Origin: an uncultured Verrucomicrobia subdivision 3 bacterium
GTDB taxonomy: Bacteria > Verrucomicrobiota > Verrucomicrobiia > Limisphaerales > UBA11358
Length of the DNA stretch: 32,275 nt
Assembly (NCBI GenBank): GCA_903889895.1
Contig: CAISYZ010000193.1
Coordinates: 1-32,275, forward strand
Direction: 5' to 3'
A model generated the notes under the pieces. The model did no database searches, was not told the origin of the DNA, and worked only from the letters and a program-made list of their open reading frames with translations. Below, piece after piece: positions 16,702 through 28,386 of this stretch. A program made the translations under genes and the position numbers. Positions within the stretch are counted from its first letter, which is position 1. Every line of letters starts with the position of its first letter.

Positions 16702-17334
16702 TCAGCCTTGAATAAAATAGCTTAGGTTTTCCAGCTCGATGGCGAGGTTGACGTTATTGACCATTACGTCCTCCGGCACGGCGAGGACGCTGGGAGAGAA
16801 ATTCAGGATACCCGCGATGCCCGCCTCGATAAGCTGGTTGGCGACGGCTTGGGCTACATCGGCTGGCACTGATAGAATTGCCATTTTCACGCTGTTCTCG
16901 GTGATGAAGTTTTTTAACTCGTCCATACCCAACAGCGGTTGCTTGAGTTCCTTATCGCGTTTCCGGCGTGGTTCGGCGTCAAACGCGGCGATGATTTCAA
17001 ATCCCTCTTTTTCGAATCCGCGATAGGAGAGCAGGGCGAGACCTAGATTACCGACGCCGACGAGGATGACTGGCTGCAGGCTGGACGTTCCCAGTTCTTC
17101 GGAAATTTTGAGTGAAAGCTCGTTCACGTCATAGCCCAGTCCGCGCGTGCCAAATGTGCCGAAGTAGGCGAGGTCTTTGCGGAGTTGCGTGGACTTGACG
17201 CCGGCGGCCTTAGCCAGCGCCTCACTGGAAACGGTGCCGATGTTGTTCTCTCGCAGCCGAGCTAGACAGCGCAGATAAATCGAGAGCCGGTATATCGTCT
17301 TGCGCGGAATGATGGGTCGTCCGATCCTTTTCAC
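16702..17334 (-). CDS. rex: Redox-sensing transcriptional repressor Rex
   Basis: A DNA-binding repressor that senses the NADH/NAD+ ratio and controls fermentation and respiration genes. Residues about 8-75 are the winged helix, with RKTIYRLSIYLRCL, VKSTQLRKDLAYFG and FGTRGLGYDV, nearly invariant in Rex. The Rossmann domain follows with GVGNLG at 93-98, AAFDAEP, and ILNFSP before the domain-swapped C-terminal helix (AIELENLSYFIQG). The length of 210 is standard. The start is GTG at 17334, which places the first helix correctly; there is no better ATG. The 716-base region upstream has no convincing gene and probably holds its promoter. A single TTGTGAA-like half-site near 17640 is not enough to claim autoregulation. 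Confidence 0.95.
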   Translation of the reverse strand: MKRIGRPIIPRKTIYRLSIYLRCLARLRENNIGTVSSEALAKAAGVKSTQLRKDLAYFGTFGTRGLGYDVNELSLKISEELGTSSLQPVILVGVGNLGLALLSYRGFEKEGFEIIAAFDAEPRRKRDKELKQPLLGMDELKNFITENSVKMAILSVPADVAQAVANQLIEAGIAGILNFSPSVLAVPEDVMVNNVNLAIELENLSYFIQG

Positions 17335-18050
17335 GAGCGCAAGCTAGCCGAGCGCGCCAAGTTCCGCAAGCGGATGTCCGTCTGGCTCCAATATTTATTG
17401 AGCTGGAAAATCTACTCATCATTGCCGGGTGTGACGACAGTCCCGGCTGGGTGGTAGATCCAGCCGCCGGAACGGGAACTTGAAGCCGCAGGTAGTATTG
17501 CAGGCAGACCAATGAATACTGCTGTTCAACTGTATGCAAATCGCATGCCAAACCGATTCGCTTGTTTTGTTGGGTAAAAACAACCGAATTTTCGCAGCAC
17601 AACCGGCTGCTTTGGTGAAAAATTATCTTGGCGGGCAAAAGTGTTCACAATTCAGTCGGGACTACGCCGGTGCCCAATGGTGGTGCGCTGCACGCTTAAT
17701 TCGCCGGATAATCCTTCGTGGCTGCATTTTCATGGGAGATTTTTATCATCCGTTTTTGCGGGCTGCATGTTACAGTCAATTGTTTTGTTGTAGGATGACG
17801 AGTGAATTATTCTTGGCATGGATTTTAAGATTTTTTTGTCGAATGCGGCAAGTCGGCAAGCGGGCTGCTAAAGTAACTGTTGATGATCAGAATTAAATCC
17901 GCCAGCCCGGCAGGTTCTGGGTTGGTGGAATCAACGGCCACCTTGAAAAATCAGGGCATAAGCTGCGGTGCGGAATTTTGCCCATCGCTGGCGGTGCTTG
18001 GTTTAGCTGTTGGCAAATGCCCACAGCGTTCAAAAAACAACTGACGGAAT
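17335..18050. other. 716-bp region without a convincing gene
   Basis: This lies between the divergent rex gene and the ATP-grasp operon, so it should carry both promoters. A 7-bp hairpin CGGCTGG/CCAGCCG sits at 17444-17466. A weak sigma70-like pair, TTGTTG at 17785 and TATTCT at 17808 with 17-base spacing, is a possible operon promoter but matches consensus poorly. Two reading frames (17534-17896, 120 residues, Cys/Arg-rich, and 17883-18044, 53 residues) look accidental. The base composition is mixed and AT-richer than the flanking genes. Confidence 0.6.
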
Positions 18051-19487
18051 ATGCTGAATCAATATAAGGTCAACCACGGTTTCGACGAAATGGCGGACGC
18101 GCAGGCGGCAGTGCGCCCACACTACCAGAAATTTCACCGGCTATTTGGCGAATTGACCGTGCCGGAGTTTCAGGCCAAACGCACGGCGGTGGACAACGCT
18201 TTTCTCCGGCAGGGTGTCACCTTCAACGTCTATGGCGATGCGGCGGGCGCCGAAAAGATATTCCCATTCGACTTGCTGCCGCGCATCATTCCGGCGAAGG
18301 AGTGGGAATTTCTGGAGCGCGGCCTGACGCAGCGCATCACCGCGCTGAATCTTTTCCTGCACGACATTTATCACGAGCAGAAAATCCTGAAGGACGGCGT
18401 GATTCCAGAATTTTACGTTTTGTCGGCAAAACATTTCCGGCGCGAGTTTGTGAACTTCAATGTGCCGAAGGATATTTACATTCACATTTGCGGCACGGAT
18501 TTGATCCGCGACAAGGACGGGAATTATCTCGTGCTGGAAGACAACGGCCGATGTCCATCCGGCGTCAGCTACGTTTTAGAAAACCGCCGCGCGATGAAGC
18601 GGGCGTTTCCGCAGATGTTTGAAGGCATCGGCGTGCGTCCGGTGGAAAATTATCCGCAGGAACTGCTCAAGTCGCTGAAATATATCGCGCCTGCTGGCGT
18701 CGCCGATCCGACGGTGGTGGTGCTTACACCCGGGGCCTACAACAGCGCGTATTTCGAGCATACCTATCTTGCGCGGCAGATGGGCATCGAGATTGTTGAA
18801 GGCCGTGATTTATTCGTGAAAGATTCGCGCGTGTTCATGCGCACGACGAAAGGCCCGCAGCCGGTGCATGTAATTTACCGGCGCATTGATGACGATTTCA
18901 TTGACCCGACGGTTTTTCGTCGCGATTCGATGCTCGGCGTGCCGGGGCTGATTCATGCCTATCGCGCCGGTAACGTCTCGCTCGCCAATTCCATCGGCAC
19001 CGGTATCGCTGATGACAAGGTGATGTATTATTTCGTGCCGCGCATGATCAAATACTACCTCGATCAGGAACCGATTTTGGGGAACGTCCCGACGTATCTA
19101 GCCAGCGAGGAGGCCGACAAAAAATACATTATAGAAAATCTGGAGAAACTCGTCGTCAAGGCGGCGAACGAATCCGGCGGCTACGGCATGCTCATGGGAC
19201 CGAAGGCGTCAAAGGCGGAAATTGAAAAATTCCGCGAACTGGTCATCGCCGAGCCGCGCAATTACATCGCGCAGCCGATGATCAACCTCTCGCAGCATCC
19301 GACCTGTTGCGACGATGTTTTTGAAGGCCGGCACATCGACTTGCGTCCGTTCATTTTGTCCGGCGAGCGCGTCAGCATCATTCCTGGTGGTCTCACGCGC
19401 GTCGCGTTGCGCAAAGGTTCGCTCGTCGTCAATTCGTCCCAGGGCGGCGGCAGCAAAGATACCTGGGTTTTGTATGGTGATGAATAG
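18051..19487 (+). CDS. Circularly permuted ATP-grasp protein (stand-alone)
   Basis: A 478-residue predicted amide-bond ligase that would activate a carboxylate as acyl-phosphate with ATP and join it to an amine. Family motifs: [10 protein letters not shown] near 57, [27 protein letters not shown], then [14 protein letters not shown] (163-174) with Glu163, Asp164, Asn165 and Arg167 expected to bind metal/nucleotide. [10 protein letters not shown] follows, then [14 protein letters not shown], whose glycine loop fits nucleotide binding, and [11 protein letters not shown] at the end. The N- and C-terminal halves are swapped relative to normal ATP-grasp enzymes. It is the first gene of six in a tight array with alpha-E and transglutaminase-like partners. 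Mycobacterial homologues are arranged similarly. Substrate is unknown; it has no signal peptide, so it works in the cytoplasm. Confidence 0.9.
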
Positions 19488-19514
19488 TTCCAAACCGATT
19501 TTGAAACATTTTTT

Positions 19515-20555
19515 ATGTTAAGCCGCGTTGCCAATTCCCTCTACTGGATGTCCCGTTACATTGAGCGCGCCGAGAATATCGCGCGCATCGTGGACGTGAA
19601 CCTGCAACTGCTCCTCGACATGCGCAGCCTCGACGAGAAGCAGCTCATCGCCTATTGGAAGCCCATCGTGATTGCCACCGGCGACGAGGAGGCGTTTTTC
19701 AAGGCGCATCCGCATGCCACCGGCGCGGCGGTCACGGAGTTTCTGGTTTTCGACAAAGAGAATCCGAATTCGCTCATCCAATCCATCTGTCAGGCTCGTG
19801 AAAATGCCCGCATGGTGCGCGACCAGATTACGCTGGAACTTTGGGAGGAATTGAACCGCCTTTATCTTTTTGTCCGCTCACCGCAGGCGCGCGAGGTCTG
19901 GAGGCGCAGCGCGACGGAGTTTTTTCAGGAAGTAAAATCCAGTTCGCTTCACATCATCGGCATCATTAACGCCACGCTCATCCACAACGAAGGCTGGTGG
20001 TTTGTGCAGGCTGGCCAATTTCTGGAGCGTGCCGACAAGACCACGCGCATTCTCGATGTGCGTCATGAAAGCCTGCCAGAGCGCGGCTTGCCGCAGAGCA
20101 TCAGCCCGGACGAAGCGCTGGGCTGGTCCGCTGTGCTCCGCTCGTGCAGCGCGTGGGACGCCTACAAATCCATCAACAGCGCCGATGTGCATCCGCGCCG
20201 CGTGGCGGAATTCCTTCTGCTCAGCGACCATTTCCCGAGATCGGTTCGCTTCTGCGTCAATGAATTGAACCGCGCGTTGCGCCGTATTTCCGGCGTGGCC
20301 GAAGGGCGGTTTTCCAATGACGCGGAAAAGCTCACCGGCCGCTTTTTGGCGGAACTTCAGTTCAGCAGTATCGAGGAAATCTTTGACGTAGGCCTGCACA
20401 AATACCTTGATGATGCGCAGCTAAAATTGATCAACATTGGCGACGCGTTGTTCCGCGCCTATATTTTTCAGTCGTTCGACAACCCGGATGAATTTCACAT
20501 GGTGCAACAGGAAGAACAGCAACAGCAGTTGAAATCGTTAATCATCCATCGGTAA
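19515..20555 (+). CDS. Alpha-E domain protein (DUF403)
   Basis: A 346-residue all-helical protein of the alpha-E family. The family start is plain: MLSRVANSLYWMSRYIERAENIAR, where the SLYWMSRYIERAE segment is the recurrent signature. Further on, WWFVQAGQFLERADKTTRILD at about residues 158-178 repeats the same pattern, and DHFPRSVRFCVNELNRALRRI is also typical. The function is not established; the family is known almost only next to permuted ATP-grasp and transglutaminase-like genes, and one proposal is that it shapes or tethers the peptide substrate. It begins 27 bp after the ATP-grasp stop, and the next gene begins 12 bp after its stop, so one mRNA is likely. No membrane segment or signal peptide. 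Confidence 0.92.
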   Translation: MLSRVANSLYWMSRYIERAENIARIVDVNLQLLLDMRSLDEKQLIAYWKPIVIATGDEEAFFKAHPHATGAAVTEFLVFDKENPNSLIQSICQARENARMVRDQITLELWEELNRLYLFVRSPQAREVWRRSATEFFQEVKSSSLHIIGIINATLIHNEGWWFVQAGQFLERADKTTRILDVRHESLPERGLPQSISPDEALGWSAVLRSCSAWDAYKSINSADVHPRRVAEFLLLSDHFPRSVRFCVNELNRALRRISGVAEGRFSNDAEKLTGRFLAELQFSSIEEIFDVGLHKYLDDAQLKLINIGDALFRAYIFQSFDNPDEFHMVQQEEQQQQLKSLIIHR

Positions 20556-20567
20556 CCGTAAATCACC

Positions 20568-23500
20568 ATGTCCATCCACGTCGCGCTCCACCACAAGACG
20601 CACTACAAATACGACCGGCTAGTCAATCTCGGCCCACAGGTCGTCCGGCTGCGGCCTGCGCCGCATTCGCGGACGCGCATATTGTCGTATTCGCTGAAAA
20701 TCACCCCGGAGAAACATTTCATTAACTGGGCGCAGGATCCGCAGGCCAATTATCAGGCGCGCTTGGTCTTTCCTGAGCCGACCCGCGAGTTTTGCGTCGA
20801 GGTGGATCTGGTGGCTGAGATGGCGGTGTTTAATCCGTTTGATTTTTTCCTCGAGCCGGACGCCGAACGCTTTCCGTTCGAATACGACCCCGCGCAAGAA
20901 CACGAGCTTGCGCCGTTCCAGCGCAAATGCTGGCTCACGCCGAAGTTCATGAAATATCTCGCGGCCGTCCGCAAAGATTTTCTTGGCGAAACTAAACGGC
21001 GAACCAAAAAAGAGCGGCTCGAAATTCCCTTCGAAGAAAAGCCGCGCACAATTGATTTTCTTGTCGCCGTTAACCAGCGGCTCTGGCAGGACATTAAATA
21101 CACCATCCGCCTCGAACCCGGCGTGCAGACGCCGGAGGAATCACTGGAAAAATTGAGCGGTTCGTGCCGCGACTCGGCGTGGCTGCTTGTGCAGCTGTTC
21201 CGCCACTGCGGGCTCGCCGCGCGCTTTGTCAGTGGTTATTTAATCCAGCTCAAGGCTGACTTGAAGTCGCTCGACGGTCCCAGTGGCGCGGAGAAAGATT
21301 TCACCGATTTGCACGCGTGGACGGAAGTTTATCTTCCCGGCGGCGGCTGGATTGGTCTCGACCCAACCTCCGGTCTGCTTGCAGGCGAGGGCCACATTCC
21401 GCTTGCCGCCACACCCGATCCGACGAGCGCCGCGCCCATCAGCGGTTTGATTGATGAATGCGAATGCGAATTTGCCCACGAGATGAACGTGTCTCGCGTC
21501 TACGAATCGCCGCGCGTCACGCTGCCTTACACCGACGCGCAATGGCGCAAGATTGAGGCGCTCGGCCATTCCATCGACGCCGATTTGAAAGTGAATGACG
21601 TGCGCCTGACGATGGGTGGTGAGCCGACGTTTGTTTCCGTGGATGATCCGGATGGCCCGGAATGGAATTTCACCGCCGTCTCGCACAAGAAGCGCACGCT
21701 TTCCGGCGAACTTATCAAGCGGCTCCGTAAAAAATTCGCGCCCGGCTCGCTGCTGCATTACGGCCAGGGCAAATGGTATCCGGGCGAACAGTTGCCGCGC
21801 TACGCGCTCGGTTGTTACTGGCGCAAGGACGGCGTGCCGATTTGGAAAGATGATTCGCTCATTGCCGACGAGTCGAAGGATTACGGCTTTGCAGCGAAGG
21901 ACGCGAAGGAACTGCTGTCGCGCATCGCCAAAATCACCGGCGCGGATCCAAAATATCTCATTCCCGCCTACGAAGACGCGTTTTATTATACCTGGAAAGA
22001 GCGCCGATTGCCGTCGAACGTCACGCCGGATAAATCCAATCTCAAGGACAAGCTGGAGCGCGAGCGCATCGCAAAAATATTTCAGCGCGGTGTGGATGAA
22101 GTCGTCGGCTACGCGTTGCCCATCAAGCGAGCGATGTATGGCAACCAGCCGGGCTGGATGTCCGGTGCGTGGTTTTTGCGCGATGACGACACGCTGTGGC
22201 TCATCCCCGGTGATTCGGCGATGGGCTTGCGTCTGCCGCTGGATTCGATTCCGTGGGTGGCGGAAAAAGAATTTCCGTGGATTCACCAGCAGGATCCATC
22301 GAATCCTAAGCTGTCGGAGTTGCCAAAAGAATTTCCTTATCAGCCGCGCAACCCGGAAACTTCCGGCCAGCAGTTCATTCGCCGCAAAGGTGGCGCGCCG
22401 TTGCCGGTGGGCTACGGTCCCGGCCAACGCGCGCAATATCGTGGTGACCTCGAAGAAGAGCGTGTCGAACTTCCGCCGTTGCCGCCGGAAATGGAATACG
22501 ACCCAAACCGCCGGCCGGTGCAGGGCCAATCCGCGCCATGGATCATTCGCACCGCAATGTGCGTCGAGCCGCGGGATGGTCGGTTGCATATCTTTATGCC
22601 GCCGGTTTCGACGACGGAAGATTATTTGGATTTGGTTGCCGGCATCGAAACCGCCGTCACTGAACTCGGCACTCCGGTTATCATCGAAGGCGAAACGCCG
22701 CCGCGCGATCCGCGCCTGAACAAGCTCGCTGTCACGCCTGACCCCGGTGTCATTGAGGTCAACATGCATCCGAGCAAATCGTGGGACGAACTGGTCGAGC
22801 GCACGACGGTGCTTTACGAGGAGGCGAGGCAGGCGCGGCTCGGCACGGAAAAATTTATGCTGGATGGCCGCCACACTGGCACCGGCGGCGGCAACCACAT
22901 CATTATCGGTGGCGATACACCGCAGGACTCGCCGGTGCTGCGCCGGCCGGATTTGCTGCGGTCGCTCATTTCGTATTGGCAGAATCATCCGTCGTTGAGT
23001 TGGCTCTTTAGCGGACTGTTTGTTGGTCCTACCTCGCAGGCTCCTCGCATAGACGAGGCTCGCAATGATTCGCTTTACGAACTCGAAGTCGCTTTCAAGG
23101 AACTGGAGCGCAACACGCAGCGGTTCGGCTACACGCCGCCGTGGCTCTGCGACCGGCTGTTCCGCAACCTGTTGATTGACTCCAGCGGCAACACACATCG
23201 CTCGGAGTTCTCGATTGATAAATTGTTTGCGCCGGAAAGTGCTTCCGGCCGGCTCGGGCTTGTGGAAATGCGCGCGTTTGAAATGCCGCCGCACGCGCAT
23301 ATGAGTCTGGCGCAGCATCTCGTCTTGCGCGGGCTGATCGCGAAATTTTGGAACGAGCCTTACAAAAACGGCCTCGTGCGTTGGGGCACGGACATCCATG
23401 ACCGCTGGATGCTGCCGCATTTTTGCGAAACGGATTTCCGCGATGTCATCGGTGATTTGCGCGCGTCCGGCTATTCGTTTGAATTCGACTGGTTCGCGCC

Positions 23501-24056
23501 GCATTTTGAATTTCGCTTTCCGCGCATCGGCGATCTGGAGCAGCGGGATCTGCAGATTGAACTCCGCACCGCGCTCGAACCGTGGCATGTCCTCGGCGAG
23601 GAGCCCGGCGGCGGCGGCACGGTGCGTTACGTGGACAGCTCGCTCGAACGCCTGCAAATCAAAGCGCGCGGTCTTGCCGGCGACCGGTTCGCCATCACGG
23701 TCAACGGCCATCGCGTGCCGCTGCATCCGACCGGCGTGAACGGCGAGGGCGTCGCCGGCGTGCGTTACCGCGCGTGGCAACCGCCAGGATGCTTGCAGCC
23801 GACTATCGCGCCGCACGCGCCGCTACGGTTTGATCTTTATGACACTTGGAATCAGCGTTCGCTCGGGGGCTGCACGTATCATGTGGCGCATCCGGGGGGA
23901 CGCAGCAACGACAAGTTTCCGGTGAACAGCTACGAGGCCGAATCACGGCGGCTCGCGCGGTTTTTCCGGCATGGTCATCAGCAGGGCAAGTTCCTGCCGC
24001 CGCCAAAAAACTTGAACGGCGACTTTCCGTTCACGCTCGATTTGCGTAATGTCTGA
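20568..24056 (+). CDS. Large transglutaminase-like/DUF2126 protein
   Basis: A 1162-residue two-part protein. Residues about 1-85 are the beta-rich bacterial transglutaminase N-terminal domain (HKTHYKYDRLVNLGPQVVRLRP). The papain-like core follows with Cys200 (GSCRDSAWLL), His249 (DLHAWTEVY) and Asp265 (IGLDPTSG), a complete triad for amide hydrolysis or transfer. From about residue 340 onward is DUF2126, with MGGEPTFVSVDDPDGPEWN near 349, MHPSKSWDEL, GTGGGNHIIIGG near 770 and VGPTSQAPRIDEARNDSLYE. Members of this class are usually near 1100 residues, so it is complete. DUF2126 has no established activity. The gene starts 12 bp after alpha-E, and its last 8 bases overlap the next start, indicating translational coupling. 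Its role may be to process or cross-link what the ATP-grasp enzyme makes. Confidence 0.92.
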   Translation: MSIHVALHHKTHYKYDRLVNLGPQVVRLRPAPHSRTRILSYSLKITPEKHFINWAQDPQANYQARLVFPEPTREFCVEVDLVAEMAVFNPFDFFLEPDAERFPFEYDPAQEHELAPFQRKCWLTPKFMKYLAAVRKDFLGETKRRTKKERLEIPFEEKPRTIDFLVAVNQRLWQDIKYTIRLEPGVQTPEESLEKLSGSCRDSAWLLVQLFRHCGLAARFVSGYLIQLKADLKSLDGPSGAEKDFTDLHAWTEVYLPGGGWIGLDPTSGLLAGEGHIPLAATPDPTSAAPISGLIDECECEFAHEMNVSRVYESPRVTLPYTDAQWRKIEALGHSIDADLKVNDVRLTMGGEPTFVSVDDPDGPEWNFTAVSHKKRTLSGELIKRLRKKFAPGSLLHYGQGKWYPGEQLPRYALGCYWRKDGVPIWKDDSLIADESKDYGFAAKDAKELLSRIAKITGADPKYLIPAYEDAFYYTWKERRLPSNVTPDKSNLKDKLERERIAKIFQRGVDEVVGYALPIKRAMYGNQPGWMSGAWFLRDDDTLWLIPGDSAMGLRLPLDSIPWVAEKEFPWIHQQDPSNPKLSELPKEFPYQPRNPETSGQQFIRRKGGAPLPVGYGPGQRAQYRGDLEEERVELPPLPPEMEYDPNRRPVQGQSAPWIIRTAMCVEPRDGRLHIFMPPVSTTEDYLDLVAGIETAVTELGTPVIIEGETPPRDPRLNKLAVTPDPGVIEVNMHPSKSWDELVERTTVLYEEARQARLGTEKFMLDGRHTGTGGGNHIIIGGDTPQDSPVLRRPDLLRSLISYWQNHPSLSWLFSGLFVGPTSQAPRIDEARNDSLYELEVAFKELERNTQRFGYTPPWLCDRLFRNLLIDSSGNTHRSEFSIDKLFAPESASGRLGLVEMRAFEMPPHAHMSLAQHLVLRGLIAKFWNEPYKNGLVRWGTDIHDRWMLPHFCETDFRDVIGDLRASGYSFEFDWFAPHFEFRFPRIGDLEQRDLQIELRTALEPWHVLGEEPGGGGTVRYVDSSLERLQIKARGLAGDRFAITVNGHRVPLHPTGVNGEGVAGVRYRAWQPPGCLQPTIAPHAPLRFDLYDTWNQRSLGGCTYHVAHPGGRSNDKFPVNSYEAESRRLARFFRHGHQQGKFLPPPKNLNGDFPFTLDLRNV

Positions 24057-26667
24057 CGCGGCCGACAATCCGGGCCGCCGCAACCGACCGCCGATGACGC
24101 AATCGCAATTTCAATCCGCGCCCGAGGACACCAGCTTCGCCAAAAAAGCGAAGCCGGAAAGCCTGTTGTCCGGCTACGAACGCGGTGCGGCCTTTGATGA
24201 GTTTCTCGCCGCCGACCAGCAGCCGCGTCCGCAATACGCCCGGCTGTTTGGCGCGCTCGAGGAGTTCGGTCCGGCCGAAATGCGCCACCGCCGCGATGCC
24301 TGCGAACGGCTCGTGAATGAGCAGGGCATCACCTACAACGTCTATGGTGACGCGCGCAGTTTGGAACGGCCGTGGCAGCTCGACCCGGTTCCCTTTGTCA
24401 TCGCGCCGGACGAATGGCGTGCCCTTGAGACGGGGCTGATCCAGCGCGCGACGCTGCTCAACCAGATTCTTGCCGACTGTTACGGTCCGCAGGAGCTCAT
24501 CCGCACCCACTGGCTTTCGCCGGCGATGGTTTTTGGGCAGCCGGATTTTTTGCGCCCGTGCCATGGCATCAGGATTCCCGGCAATACCTATCTGCATTTC
24601 TATGCGGCTGACTTGGCGCGTTCGCCGGATGGACGCTGGTGGGTGGTTTCCGATCGCACGCAGATCCCGACCGGCGCCGGCTACGCCCTCGCCAATCGCC
24701 TGGTCGTCTCGCGCATTTTATCGGAGCCGTTCCGCGACAATCATGTCCATCGGCTGGCTGGATTTTTCCGCGATACGCAGGCGGCGTTGATGAAACTTTC
24801 CCCGCGCGGCGCGGACAACGCCCGCGTGGTGATGCTCACGCCGGGACCGCTGAACGAAACCTATTTCGAGCAGACGTATCTCGCGCGTTATCTCGGCTAC
24901 ACGCTGGTCGAGGGGCAGGATTTGACCGTGCGTGACAACTGTGTGTGGTTGAAAACGCTCGCCGGGCTGGAACGGGTGGACGTCATCCTGCGCCGCGTGG
25001 ACGATGATTTTTGCGACCCGCTGGAATTGCGGAACGATTCCATCCTCGGCGTGCCCGGCCTGGTCGAAGCGGTTCGCGCCGGCAACGTCGTCTTGGCCAA
25101 TGCGCTCGGTTCCGGTCTCGTGCAAAGCCCCGCGTTCATGTCGTTTCTGCCCGGGCTGTGCAAACATCTGCTCGGCGAAGCGCTGACATTGCCTTCCGTT
25201 GCGACGTGGTGGTGCGGCCAAAAGGCGGCCCGCGAATATGTTCTGGAGCATCTCGATAAGCTGGTCGTGAAGCCCGCTTTCCGGATGCGCCTCCGCCTGC
25301 CGAACCCGGCCAAAGCGATGAGCGATGCCGAACGGGTGACGCTGCGGCGGCAAATTGAATTTGACCCCGACCTTTTCGTCGCCCAGGAGCGCGTCAAGTT
25401 CTCCACCGCTCCGATGTGGGAGAAAACCGGTCTCGTGCCGCGGACGGTGGAATTGCGCGTGTTTCTGGTCGCGACCGAAAATGGCTATCGCGTGATGCCC
25501 GGCGGGCTGACCCGCGTCTCGCCGGATGCCGGCGGACAATTAATCACCATGCAGCGCGGCGGCAGCAGCAAAGATACCTGGGTGATTTCCGAAACGCCGG
25601 TCGAGGAAGTCACTTTGCTCCACACCGCCGCCCAAAAAGTAGAGCTGCGGCGCACGGGGAACAATTTGCCCTCGCGGCTCGCGGACAATTTCTACTGGTT
25701 GGGCCGCTATTCCGAGCGCGCGGATGCCACGGCCCGCCTGTTGCGAAGCGCGTTGCTGCGGTCCAATCCCGAGCGCGCCGGCAGCGCGGAATCACTCATC
25801 GCGCCGTTGGTGCGGACGCTGGAGTTGCAAGGCCAGTTGCCCGAAATTTCCCAGAAGCCGGAGCTGTGCCAAAACGCCGAGGCCTTCGAGGCGGAGCTGC
25901 TGGCGGCGATTTTTGATCCGTCGCGCCCCGGCAGCCTGCGGCAGACGGCGCACCAACTCCAACGGCTCGCCACGCTGGTGCGCGACCGCACTTCGAATGA
26001 CATGTGGCGCGCGTTGAGCCGCCTGAACGACCGGTTGTCCACGCCGACGTCGAGCATCGTGATGCTGTCCGGCGATGCCACCGGCGTTTTGAATGAAACA
26101 CTGCTCGGGCTGGCGGCGTTCCAAGGTCTCGCGCGTGAGAACATGACGCGGGCGCAGGCCTGGCGGTTTCTCGACATGGGGCTGCGCATCGAGCGCGCCG
26201 TTTACATTTGCACTTTGCTCGAAGCGACGTTGTGTGCGCCCGAAGCGGAAAATCCCAGCCTGCTCGAAGCCGTGCTGGACGTGGTGGACAGCAGCATCAC
26301 GTTCCGTTCGCGCTACAATCTCGTGGCGACGCTCCCGGCCGTGTTCGATTTGGTTTTGCTGGATGATAAAAATCCCCGCTCGGTGCTCTTCCAGGTGAAC
26401 CAGCTGGCGAAACATTTTGAGAAATTGCCCAAGGAACGCGAGGAGGCGCCCGGTTCGGGAAAAAATATCCTCGCCAAATGCGTGAAGCGGCTGAATCAGG
26501 TGGACGCCCGCGAGCTCGCCGGCACCGGCGGCGACTGGTTGGCGAGCGATGTGGGCGCGGTCATCCGCGAGACGCTCCAGACGCTGCCGAAATTGTCGGA
26601 GGCCATCGCGGCGAGCTACTTTGCGCACGCGGAAATCTCGCGCACGGGGCGGGGGAGCGAGGCATGA
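24049..26667 (+). CDS. Fused circularly permuted ATP-grasp/alpha-E protein
   Basis: An 872-residue natural fusion of the two activities encoded separately upstream. After a disordered start of about 45 residues, the permuted ATP-grasp part runs to about 525: TYNVYGDARSLERPW, VVSDRTQIPTGAGYALANR, VMLTPGPLNETYFEQ, RRVDDDFCDP, GVPGLVEA, LVVKPAF and GGSSKDTWVIS. The alpha-E part begins near residue 540 with LPSRLADNFYWLGRYSERAD and repeats as FLDMGLRIERAVYICTLLEA. Compared with the stand-alone copy, VLEDNGR is replaced by VVSDRTQ and the ESGGYGM glycine loop is absent; this divergence is common to the fused clade as far as recalled, so it probably marks another substrate rather than decay. The ATG at 24049 overlaps the previous stop by 8 bases and its own stop overlaps the next ATG (ATGA). 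Confidence 0.92.
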   Translation: MSDAADNPGRRNRPPMTQSQFQSAPEDTSFAKKAKPESLLSGYERGAAFDEFLAADQQPRPQYARLFGALEEFGPAEMRHRRDACERLVNEQGITYNVYGDARSLERPWQLDPVPFVIAPDEWRALETGLIQRATLLNQILADCYGPQELIRTHWLSPAMVFGQPDFLRPCHGIRIPGNTYLHFYAADLARSPDGRWWVVSDRTQIPTGAGYALANRLVVSRILSEPFRDNHVHRLAGFFRDTQAALMKLSPRGADNARVVMLTPGPLNETYFEQTYLARYLGYTLVEGQDLTVRDNCVWLKTLAGLERVDVILRRVDDDFCDPLELRNDSILGVPGLVEAVRAGNVVLANALGSGLVQSPAFMSFLPGLCKHLLGEALTLPSVATWWCGQKAAREYVLEHLDKLVVKPAFRMRLRLPNPAKAMSDAERVTLRRQIEFDPDLFVAQERVKFSTAPMWEKTGLVPRTVELRVFLVATENGYRVMPGGLTRVSPDAGGQLITMQRGGSSKDTWVISETPVEEVTLLHTAAQKVELRRTGNNLPSRLADNFYWLGRYSERADATARLLRSALLRSNPERAGSAESLIAPLVRTLELQGQLPEISQKPELCQNAEAFEAELLAAIFDPSRPGSLRQTAHQLQRLATLVRDRTSNDMWRALSRLNDRLSTPTSSIVMLSGDATGVLNETLLGLAAFQGLARENMTRAQAWRFLDMGLRIERAVYICTLLEATLCAPEAENPSLLEAVLDVVDSSITFRSRYNLVATLPAVFDLVLLDDKNPRSVLFQVNQLAKHFEKLPKEREEAPGSGKNILAKCVKRLNQVDARELAGTGGDWLASDVGAVIRETLQTLPKLSEAIAASYFAHAEISRTGRGSEA

Positions 26668-27566
26668 AACCGGCCATGCACTACCGCATCACGCACCGCA
26701 CGCTTTACGAATACGCCGCGCCGGTGAGCGTCTCGCAGCACGTCGCCCGGCTGACGCCGCGCACCACGGCGGCGCAGTCGTATGCCGATTTCACCCTGCA
26801 CATCGAGCCGGCGCCCACGCTGCGCCGCACGCGCACAGATTACTTCGGCAATGAGCTGTGCTTTTTCAGCATTCAGGAACATCATCGCCGCTTGGAGATC
26901 ACCACGCAGAGCCGGGTGACGGTGAACGCCATGGCAAAAATTGACGTGACGGCCTCGCCGGCTTGGGAAGACGTCGCCAAACTTTTCCGGGACCCGGTTT
27001 CGCCGGCGGTGGTCGAGCCTTACGAGTTTGTTTTCGACTCGCCGCAGGTGCGCGCGGCCATGGGGCTGGCGGAATACGCGCTGGAAAGTTTTGCCGCCGG
27101 CACGCCCATCCTCGCCGGGGCGCAGGATTTGACGCGCCGCATCTACCAGGATTTCAAATACGACCCGAAGGCGACGACCGTGGCGACGCCGCTGGAGGAG
27201 GTCTGGGAAAAACGGCGCGGCGTTTGCCAGGACTTCGCGCATCTGGGCATCGCGTGTCTGCGCTCGCTCGGTTTGCCGGCGCGTTACGTCAGCGGCTATC
27301 TGCGCACGCACCCGCCGGCGGGCCAGCCGCGGCTCGTCGGGGCGGACGCGAGCCATGCGTGGTTCAGCGTGTTTTGTCCCGGCACCGGCTGGGTGGATTT
27401 CGACCCGACGAACAACTGTTTGCCGGACGACGAACACATCACCGTGGCGCAGGGCCGCGATTTTGGGGATGTCAGCCCCGTGGCGGGCATCATCACCGGC
27501 GGGGGCGCCCATGAAGTGCGGGTGTCGGTGGATGTCGAGCCGCTTAAAAATTCTGATGAGATTTGA
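26664..27566 (+). CDS. Transglutaminase-like protease-fold protein (first of two)
   Basis: A 300-residue papain-fold protein with the bacterial transglutaminase N-terminal beta domain (MHYRITHRTLYEYAAPVSVS, residues 5-24) and a catalytic core with Cys188 (RRGVCQDFAH), His231 (ASHAWFSVF) and Asp247 (WVDFDPTN). All three catalytic residues are present. The start is the ATG at 26664, forming an ATGA overlap with the preceding stop; the frame is open further up inside the fusion gene but that part is an overprinted shadow. It ends 11 bases into the next gene. Proteins of this type accompany ATP-grasp/alpha-E fusions and may cleave or transfer the amide bonds they form. Cytoplasmic by absence of a signal. 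Confidence 0.92.
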   Translation: MKPAMHYRITHRTLYEYAAPVSVSQHVARLTPRTTAAQSYADFTLHIEPAPTLRRTRTDYFGNELCFFSIQEHHRRLEITTQSRVTVNAMAKIDVTASPAWEDVAKLFRDPVSPAVVEPYEFVFDSPQVRAAMGLAEYALESFAAGTPILAGAQDLTRRIYQDFKYDPKATTVATPLEEVWEKRRGVCQDFAHLGIACLRSLGLPARYVSGYLRTHPPAGQPRLVGADASHAWFSVFCPGTGWVDFDPTNNCLPDDEHITVAQGRDFGDVSPVAGIITGGGAHEVRVSVDVEPLKNSDEI

Positions 27567-28386
27567 AATCACCCATCGCACGAGTTACACCTACGCCTCG
27601 CCGGTGCGCGACAGCTTCAACGAGGTGCGGCTGCAACCGTTCAACAACCACGTCCAGGTCGTCGAGAGCTTTCTGTTAAAAATATTGCCCGCCGCGCGCC
27701 TGCGGCACCGGCATGATTTTTATTCCAACGTCGTCCACCACTTCGAAATCATCGAGCCGCACTCAACCCTGACGGTCGAGAGCCAGTTACGGGTGATCAC
27801 GAGCAATCCACCGGTCATCGCGCCCGCCGCGGAGCCGTGGCCGCTGGCGCGCATCGGCGAGGCGCTGCGCGAACCGCGCGTGTTCGATTTTTTGCAGGAC
27901 AGCCATTTCGTGGAAATGTCTCCGGAAGTCTGGCGCTTCGCGCTCGACGCCACGGCGGGGCAGACCGATACCTGGCAGGCGGCGCTCGCGGTGATGCGCA
28001 TGGTGCATGCGGAACTGAAATACGAATCCAACTCCACCAGTGTCCACACGCATGCCCGCGATGTGCTGCGCGACAAACGCGGCGTGTGCCAGGATTTTGC
28101 GCACGTCATGATCGGCATGTGCCGCGCGCTGAAAATCCCCGCGCTCTACGTCAGCGGCTATCTCGCCACGGAGAGCGCCAGTGCCACCCACGCGTGGATG
28201 GAAGTCCTGATCCCCGGTCTCGGCTGGCGCGGGCTGGACCCGACGCACAACCGGCCGGTGGACGAAACTTACATCAAGCTCGCCGTGGGCCGCGACTATT
28301 CGGACGTCGCGCCGGTGGCCGGCAATTACAAGGGCACGACCGACCGCAAGCTGGAAGTCTCCGTCAAAATCACGCCGCTGTCGTAA
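27556..28386 (+). CDS. Transglutaminase-like protease-fold protein (second of two)
   Basis: A 276-residue relative of the preceding gene, with the same layout: N-terminal beta domain (MRFEITHRTSYTYASPVRDS) and a core with Cys178 (RGVCQDFAHVMIG), His212 (ATHAWMEVL) and Asp228 (RGLDPTHN). The N-terminus resembles its neighbour (EITHRT/RITHRT), but the middle differs, and the approach to His212 is shorter, so it is an old paralogue and not a recent copy. The ATG at 27556 overlaps the previous stop by 11 bases; earlier in-frame starts lie inside the neighbour. It is the last gene of the array; 95 bp without a strong terminator separate it from satP. An intact triad argues against a purely structural role. 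Confidence 0.92.
   Translation: MRFEITHRTSYTYASPVRDSFNEVRLQPFNNHVQVVESFLLKILPAARLRHRHDFYSNVVHHFEIIEPHSTLTVESQLRVITSNPPVIAPAAEPWPLARIGEALREPRVFDFLQDSHFVEMSPEVWRFALDATAGQTDTWQAALAVMRMVHAELKYESNSTSVHTHARDVLRDKRGVCQDFAHVMIGMCRALKIPALYVSGYLATESASATHAWMEVLIPGLGWRGLDPTHNRPVDETYIKLAVGRDYSDVAPVAGNYKGTTDRKLEVSVKITPLS

Follow-up and report, generated by a model that had tools for sequence, protein, structure and literature searches.

Layout and gene content of the array

The stretch of DNA analysed here (the window), positions 1 to 32,275 of the forward strand of contig CAISYZ010000193.1, comes from an uncultured Verrucomicrobia subdivision 3 bacterium of the Limisphaerales (GCA_903889895.1, a draft genome of 4.14 Mb in 260 contigs, 76% complete). 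It carries at 18051-28386 an array of six genes on one strand, called S, A, D, F, T1 and T2 in that order, two of which encode ATP-grasp proteins, S with the active-site residues retained and F without the glycine-rich loop and the magnesium (Mg)-ligand pair. S (18051..19487, +) is a stand-alone circularly permuted ATP-grasp protein (CP_ATPgrasp_2, PF14403, 551 bits) and A (19515..20555, +) a stand-alone Alpha-E protein (PF04168, 318 bits). D (20568..24056, +) joins a transglutaminase-like (TG) domain (Bact_transglu_N 88 bits, Transglut_core 61 bits) to DUF2126 (1295 bits), a predicted glutamine-synthetase-like carboxylate-amine ligase that Pfam labels putative amidoligase. F (24049..26667, +) fuses CP_ATPgrasp_2 (516 bits) to Alpha-E (231 bits) and is a predicted pseudo-ATP-grasp protein. 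The array ends with two TG-like proteins, T1 (26664..27566, +; Bact_transglu_N 89 and Transglut_core 75 bits; C188-H231-D247) and T2 (27556..28386, +; Pfam 78 and 83 bits), whose starts are taken as 26664 and 27556, the mechanical open reading frame (ORF) listing giving longer starts for both.

The genes are separated by gaps of 27 and 12 bp and then joined by overlaps of 8, 4 and 11 bases; by ORF coordinates this is exactly what a preliminary description of the same DNA had stated, and its family assignments and operon-like packing are borne out by strong Pfam matches for all six proteins and by the junction spacing, respectively. NCBIfam models gave no match to any of the six proteins at E 0.001, and the source genome, as far as its 76% completeness reaches, holds no PF14403 or PF04168 match besides the array. 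Terminator-like patterns across the region were not rarer than chance (22 vs 16), and among those listed none falls in the gaps between array genes. The description had also proposed a cytoplasmic ligate-and-trim system, and its cytoplasmic part agrees with the proteins, none of which has a transmembrane segment or a signal-like or hydrophobic N-terminus (highest 19-residue Kyte-Doolittle mean, 1.47). Opposite D lies an 858-codon open frame (21240-23816, -), which we regard as a side effect of codon usage.

The TG domain of D carries the triad C200, H249 and D265, and Cys-His-Asp was intact in 81/81 D proteins; among 80 stand-alone TG proteins, Cys was present in 77 and His and Asp in all (TG matches shorter than 200 residues and three DUF2126 fragments were dropped). 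These domains of the array may hydrolyse or transfer, so that 'trim' stays an inference, with the Cys-His-Asp residues kept and no proteasome-type PF00227 protein found. DUF2126 is marked by long conserved blocks, e.g. GTGGGNH and FEMPP; no solved relative of this part was found by sequence, and the literature searched (here and below mostly without subscription papers) yielded no paper containing the word DUF2126.

Loss of the ATP-grasp active site in F

S and F could be aligned over the ATP-grasp length (hhalign probability 100), and this alignment located the differences between them. The S motif with E163 and N165, which has the pattern of Mg ligands (18534..18563, +), contains EDNGRCPSG, in place of which F has SDRTQIPTG (24649..24675, +), and the glycine-rich loop SGGYG of S (residues 375-379; 19173..19187, +) lies in a K-x4-SGGYG element replaced in F by KPAFRMRLRL (25270..25299, +). 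In a first set of 38 S and 58 F, E163, N165 and the GGYG loop were present in all S and none of the three in any F. The set was then enlarged by 43 F and 16 S from a survey of the window's phylum and from plasmids, giving unique totals of 100 F and 53 S after 10 short or broken ATP-grasp ORFs, one locus (L137) and a duplicate plasmid stretch (L118) had been dropped. In this set E163 and N165 occurred together in 53/53 S and 0/100 F, and the loop GGxG likewise in 53/53 S and 0/100 F. Because ten F retain E alone, N165, kept in none, is the safest single mark of F. The roles given to these residues rest on pattern, conservation and the case of trypanothione synthetase, in which Asp330, Glu344 and Asn346 are the ligands of two Mg ions, in the order D...E-x-N also seen in S (PMC3581523). 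The same D-E-x-N-P spacing was read by eye in a glutathionylspermidine synthetase of locus L162, and 3n6x is a solved relative of S.

The preliminary description had treated both ATP-grasp proteins as ligases. Two ordinary ATP-grasp ligases are rejected by the lack of the Mg ligands and glycine loop in all F, and an ATPase assay of both proteins would thus compare one likely enzyme with one likely pseudoenzyme. F is best read as a conserved pseudoenzyme partner of S rather than as a second ligase. It is not decaying: among eight relatives, dN of F is 0.15-0.29 and dS 1.05-1.29 (nonsynonymous and synonymous divergence, respectively), so that dN lies well below dS, with dS near saturation, and F is under selection. 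In the literature searched, no paper on a pseudo-ATP-grasp protein of this family was found.

That F remains an enzyme but with altered chemistry, its D-R-T-Q residues building a new site at which ATP or some other nucleotide is used in the absence of the usual two Mg, is a less likely explanation and one we regard as doubtful. It would account for the F-specific signature D-R-T-Q, present in 58/100 F from several phyla, and for the retention of D285 (100 of the 100 F), Q408 (96), R432 (88), K or R370 (91) and D or E150 (95). Since the last two, also kept, are ATP-site residues, F may still bind a nucleotide. The loop and the E-N pair are nevertheless missing in all 100 F, and in other families of the phylum the diverged F have not even kept D-R-T-Q. 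In four loci of one such family (L135, L136, L138 and L139; family f4), F is very diverged, with RDELEQPRN or alike in place of DRTQ; the adjoining S is intact and no D is present.

F and S were separated by one branch in both trees (58/38 and 100/53 rows; Shimodaira-Hasegawa-like approximate likelihood ratio test, SH-aLRT, 100), which were quick, unrooted and without bootstrap and had long branches flagged; the closest S in the tree is that of a Limisphaerales locus (L090, 97% identity). The Alpha-E half of F and stand-alone A likewise fell on two sides of one branch (59/42 rows, Alpha-E matches under 230 residues dropped). F most likely arose by joint duplication of an S-A pair, followed by fusion and by loss of the catalytic residues; as the trees are unrooted and quick, S is the presumed older state. 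The Alpha-E half of F keeps R14, E17, R18, R24, R102, G149, G167, E171, R172 and P241, and eight A residues are no longer the commonest in it, namely R95, E96, N97, D174, T176, R178, D181 and H295. That both halves of F are altered together suggests that these eight residues of A may serve the active site of S. No solved relative of Alpha-E was found by sequence, and a likeness to response regulators of the PDB (E 0.0085) was discarded, being gone when a profile was used.

Distribution of the array and its upstream region

DUF2126-type D genes were sought in one genome per species over 84,980 species, with hits at 218 places, from which 80 loci were retained; locus counts refer to these and the window (81), several loci ending at contig ends. 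D was present in loci of seven bacterial phyla. The order S-A-D-F-T-T occurred in 15 of the 81 loci, window included, which exceeds chance, and was confined to verrucomicrobial-type loci; D-F-T alone (28 loci) was mostly proteobacterial, and S-A-D and S-A-D-F-T were found in 7 and 6 loci, respectively. Three loci titled Akkermansia muciniphila or Proteobacteria (L040, L076 and L051) have proteins that group with verrucomicrobial subdivision 3, and their titles are probably wrong. An Enterobacter roggenkampii IncFII plasmid of 91 kb (NZ_CP116251.1, 6243-15434 of locus L116) carries the full S-A-D-F-T set near IS26, IS110 and arsC, and this plasmid copy near insertion sequence elements suggests that the five genes may travel together.

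Among 194 genomes of the window's phylum, S was found in 50, F in 43 and D in 35, S and F being told apart by frame length and score. Two weak PF14403 matches below the cut-off (in G139, and a second one in G052) were omitted, so that 50 of 51 matching genomes counted as having S. S was present in 43/43 genomes with F and in 35/35 with D, and F in 34/35 with D, figures to which no simple probability applies since these genomes are relatives. One phylum genome (G086) has S and D, with F not found.

That the array is an ordinary relic, widely inherited and without joint function in this lineage, appears very improbable. Its parts do occur apart, as the D-F-T loci show, some of these being cut by contig ends, but order, overlaps and residues are kept, and dN was lower than dS for all six array genes in the eight relatives.

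Upstream of the array, and not mentioned in the preliminary description, lies a sigma-54 (-24/-12) promoter-like site, CGGCAAG-N4-CTGCT (published consensus GGcacg-N4-ttGC, PMC5491218; GG-N10-GC; CGGCAAGCGGGCTGCT; 17854..17869, +), 181 nt before S. Using the consensus GGcacg-N4-ttGC (PMC5491218), the 250 bases before each gene were scanned at a threshold of 14 of 16. In a scan of the 250 bases before each gene, scores of at least 14 of 16 were obtained before 20/37 S, 17/78 D, 0/59 F and 0/41 A genes and before 19/1249 control ORFs, with only S genes having 250 bases upstream counted (37 here, and 19 in the verrucomicrobial-type count that follows), the loci including relatives and so not being independent, which makes the p-values of the scan too strong, and the controls being mechanical ORFs of more than 250 residues, some surely spurious. 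A strict motif, YGGCAMG-N4-YTGCW, preceded S in 13/19 verrucomicrobial-type loci; it occurred 14 times in the 779,326 strand-bases of those loci and in none of 500 Markov-shuffle sets. The site is called a footprint because the surrounding DNA aligns poorly. RpoN is encoded in the source genome (NCBIfam 428 bits against a cut-off of 277), as are four strong sigma-54 activators, of which two carry receiver domains. The switch at the start of the array is, judged from these patterns, probably of the sigma-54 type.

Between this site and S lies a candidate leader ORF of 53 codons (17883..18044, +). Of the 13 strict-motif loci, 12 have an ATG 10-15 nt past the sigma-54-like site, and the ORFs that begin there, 17-61 codons long, mostly stop close to the start of S. 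The leader peptides are hardly alike across loci, and a protein database search with the window's peptide returned one near-identical cluster only; a conserved precursor peptide is not supported by these results.

The divergent neighbour of the array is rex (16702..17334, -), a redox-sensing repressor, which is not claimed as part of the machine. It is divergent to the array in the window and in four further loci (L090, L042, L041 and L035). A Rex-type palindrome, TTGTGAA-N4-TTCACAA, lies 12-13 bp before the -24 element in L035, L041, L042 (one mismatch) and L046, and L046 has this palindrome, yet no rex was found in its locus. A Rex operator controlling the window's array was rejected, no match being present near the array with up to 3 mismatches.

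Relation to known systems and proposed function

Systems of this kind are already known. Neighbourhoods of permuted ATP-grasp, Alpha-E, transglutaminase and DUF2126 amidoligase genes were reportedly described by Iyer and co-workers in 2009 and predicted to carry out peptide ligation, and in the literature searched no substrate of such a system was found. The link to a predicted peptide-ligase neighbourhood drawn in the preliminary description is supported by the TG-ligase family of PMC2588565, which we read as DUF2126: there proteins that combine a TG-like domain with a carboxylate-amine ligase, e.g. Mycobacterium tuberculosis Rv2566, are predicted to form peptides. All four domain families of that amidoligase neighbourhood, including the TG-ligase fusion, are present in the array, which differs in uniting both modules in a six-gene run, in having no PF00227 match and in the pseudo-ATP-grasp F. 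The Rlo operon of Pseudomonas (PMC12239564) similarly has ATP-grasp and transglutaminase-type proteins together, one of them inactive; unlike the array it has membrane and secreted parts, and its inactive member is the TG domain. The glutathionylspermidine and trypanothione synthetases share the Mg pattern with S, no homology being found by hhalign (see below).

S, A and a TG protein are also partners in the Anbu operon (PMC6376114, PMC5666114), to which the array adds D and F, and by this likeness the array could be a peptide-tagging or tag-removing system of the Anbu kind, in which S and D tag proteins that are then cut. We consider this improbable. Neither any of the six genes of the array nor the source genome (76% complete) matched the N-terminal nucleophile (NTN)-hydrolase family of Anbu, PF00227; in the phylum survey, only 8/50 S genomes and 3/35 D genomes had such a match, and 42/50 S genomes had none. 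Moreover, PMC2588565 records no Pup-like small ORF near the TG-ligase family and favours small peptides. The S-type protein of Yersinia bercovieri released phosphate from ATP, with no stimulation by Glu, Gln or Anbu (PMC6376114).

Expression data from related clusters bear on when the array may act. The Burkholderia cenocepacia cluster I35_5080-83, in which DUF404/407, DUF403, a TG protein and a large TG protein that we take to be D are clustered as in the array, is a common target of sigma-54 and NtrC and was expressed at 6.0 to 9.4 fold lower levels when ntrC was mutated (PMC5491218); there the dependence was measured, whereas the window offers a promoter-like site only. In Pseudomonas putida, PP_2685 and PP_2688 rose by log2 4.4 and 4.0 on nitrate vs ammonium (PMC8050072), PP_2685-2687 rose 7 to 11 fold on poor nitrogen (PMC3325844), and PP_2686-2688 rose 11 to 15 fold under nitrogen limitation (PMC7801951, Table 2), under which PP_2685 hardly rose (1.1 in the wild type; PMC7801951). 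Because the Burkholderia cluster depends on NtrC and sigma-54, nitrogen limitation is the condition to start with, and activation of the array under it is, by analogy, a good first guess and no more.

The same data could point to nitrogen salvage, in which the TG domains would free nitrogen from amides or cleave peptides, with the ligases recovering the fragments. This possibility, which we rate as unlikely, draws on the Pseudomonas rise on poor nitrogen and the Burkholderia dependence on NtrC, on an association with urea domains in marine metagenomes (PMC3597751) and on the Acidithiobacillus caldus plasmid mpAca1.1 (L160), where D (its match in two pieces), S and A lie about 5-10 kb from ntrC, glnL and glnA and near an aliphatic amidase. 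Induction, however, tells when and not what, two ligases favour bond making, and the P. putida results are in part contrary: PP_2686-2688 were still up 14-20 fold in an rpoN mutant (PMC7801951, Table 2), in which urtABCD also still rose, and the PP_2685 promoter was blind to nitrogen as a reporter (PMC8050072).

Our favoured reading, which we hold to be reasonably probable, is that the array is a sigma-54-type operon for a cytoplasmic amide-bond machine with F as a pseudoenzyme. S, aided by A, would activate a carboxylate with ATP and join it to an amine, and D would supply a second, glutamine-synthetase-type ligase joined to a TG-like domain. T1, T2 and the TG domain of D would cut or transfer amide bonds through their Cys-His-Asp triads, and F would probably pair with S and A, positioning, holding or gating the substrate. 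The ligase chemistry, the formation of an S-A-F complex and the direction, whether peptide making or remodelling, are inferred.

Several observations weigh against this reading, among them the ATP-site residues kept in F, the quality of the trees and the two P. putida results given above. In 49 genomes, which cover 50 of the 80 loci and were tallied by frame length and score, a whole F was found in 39 (37 with S and 2 in which no S was seen), S without a whole F in 8, and 2 were unclear. Alignment of S and F with one glutathionylspermidine synthetase by hhalign gave no join. As for the promoter, 6 of the 19 verrucomicrobial-type S upstreams are without the strict motif, and over the whole source genome it is not enriched (15 sites vs 19 for the reversed pattern). 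Since it does not outnumber its reverse, it gives no basis for naming a regulon; three of the other 14 genomic sites had a candidate downstream or overlapping gene that was scanned (primase-like, AAA and no family), and none was a nitrogen gene. No activator in the source genome reaches the NCBIfam cut-off for NtrC, one of them being cut by a contig end. Expression is moreover cited as unchanged under various conditions in PMC5666114, and Anbu as a bait caught no specific Yersinia operon partner (PMC6376114), a test outside which S-A-F lies.

A more far-reaching version would make F a dead ligase turned carrier, to which, in complex with S-A, the chain under construction or the target chain is bound; S-A and D would lengthen this chain by further units and the TG domains would set it free, the whole acting as a template-free peptide factory that is turned on via sigma-54. 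This is a speculative proposal that we would not expect to hold; if it were true, the eight changed Alpha-E residues would show which part of A is needed to complete the active site of S.

As far as the literature search shows, what is new in the amide-bond machine proposed here is the loss of the ATP site of F over phyla, the single split between F and S that includes the Alpha-E half, the dependence of F on S, and the promoter footprint. If only one ATP-grasp protein of the array is an ordinary ligase, assays should be aimed at S, as failure is expected with F by itself; should F be required as a partner, a reconstitution without F would hide the activity.

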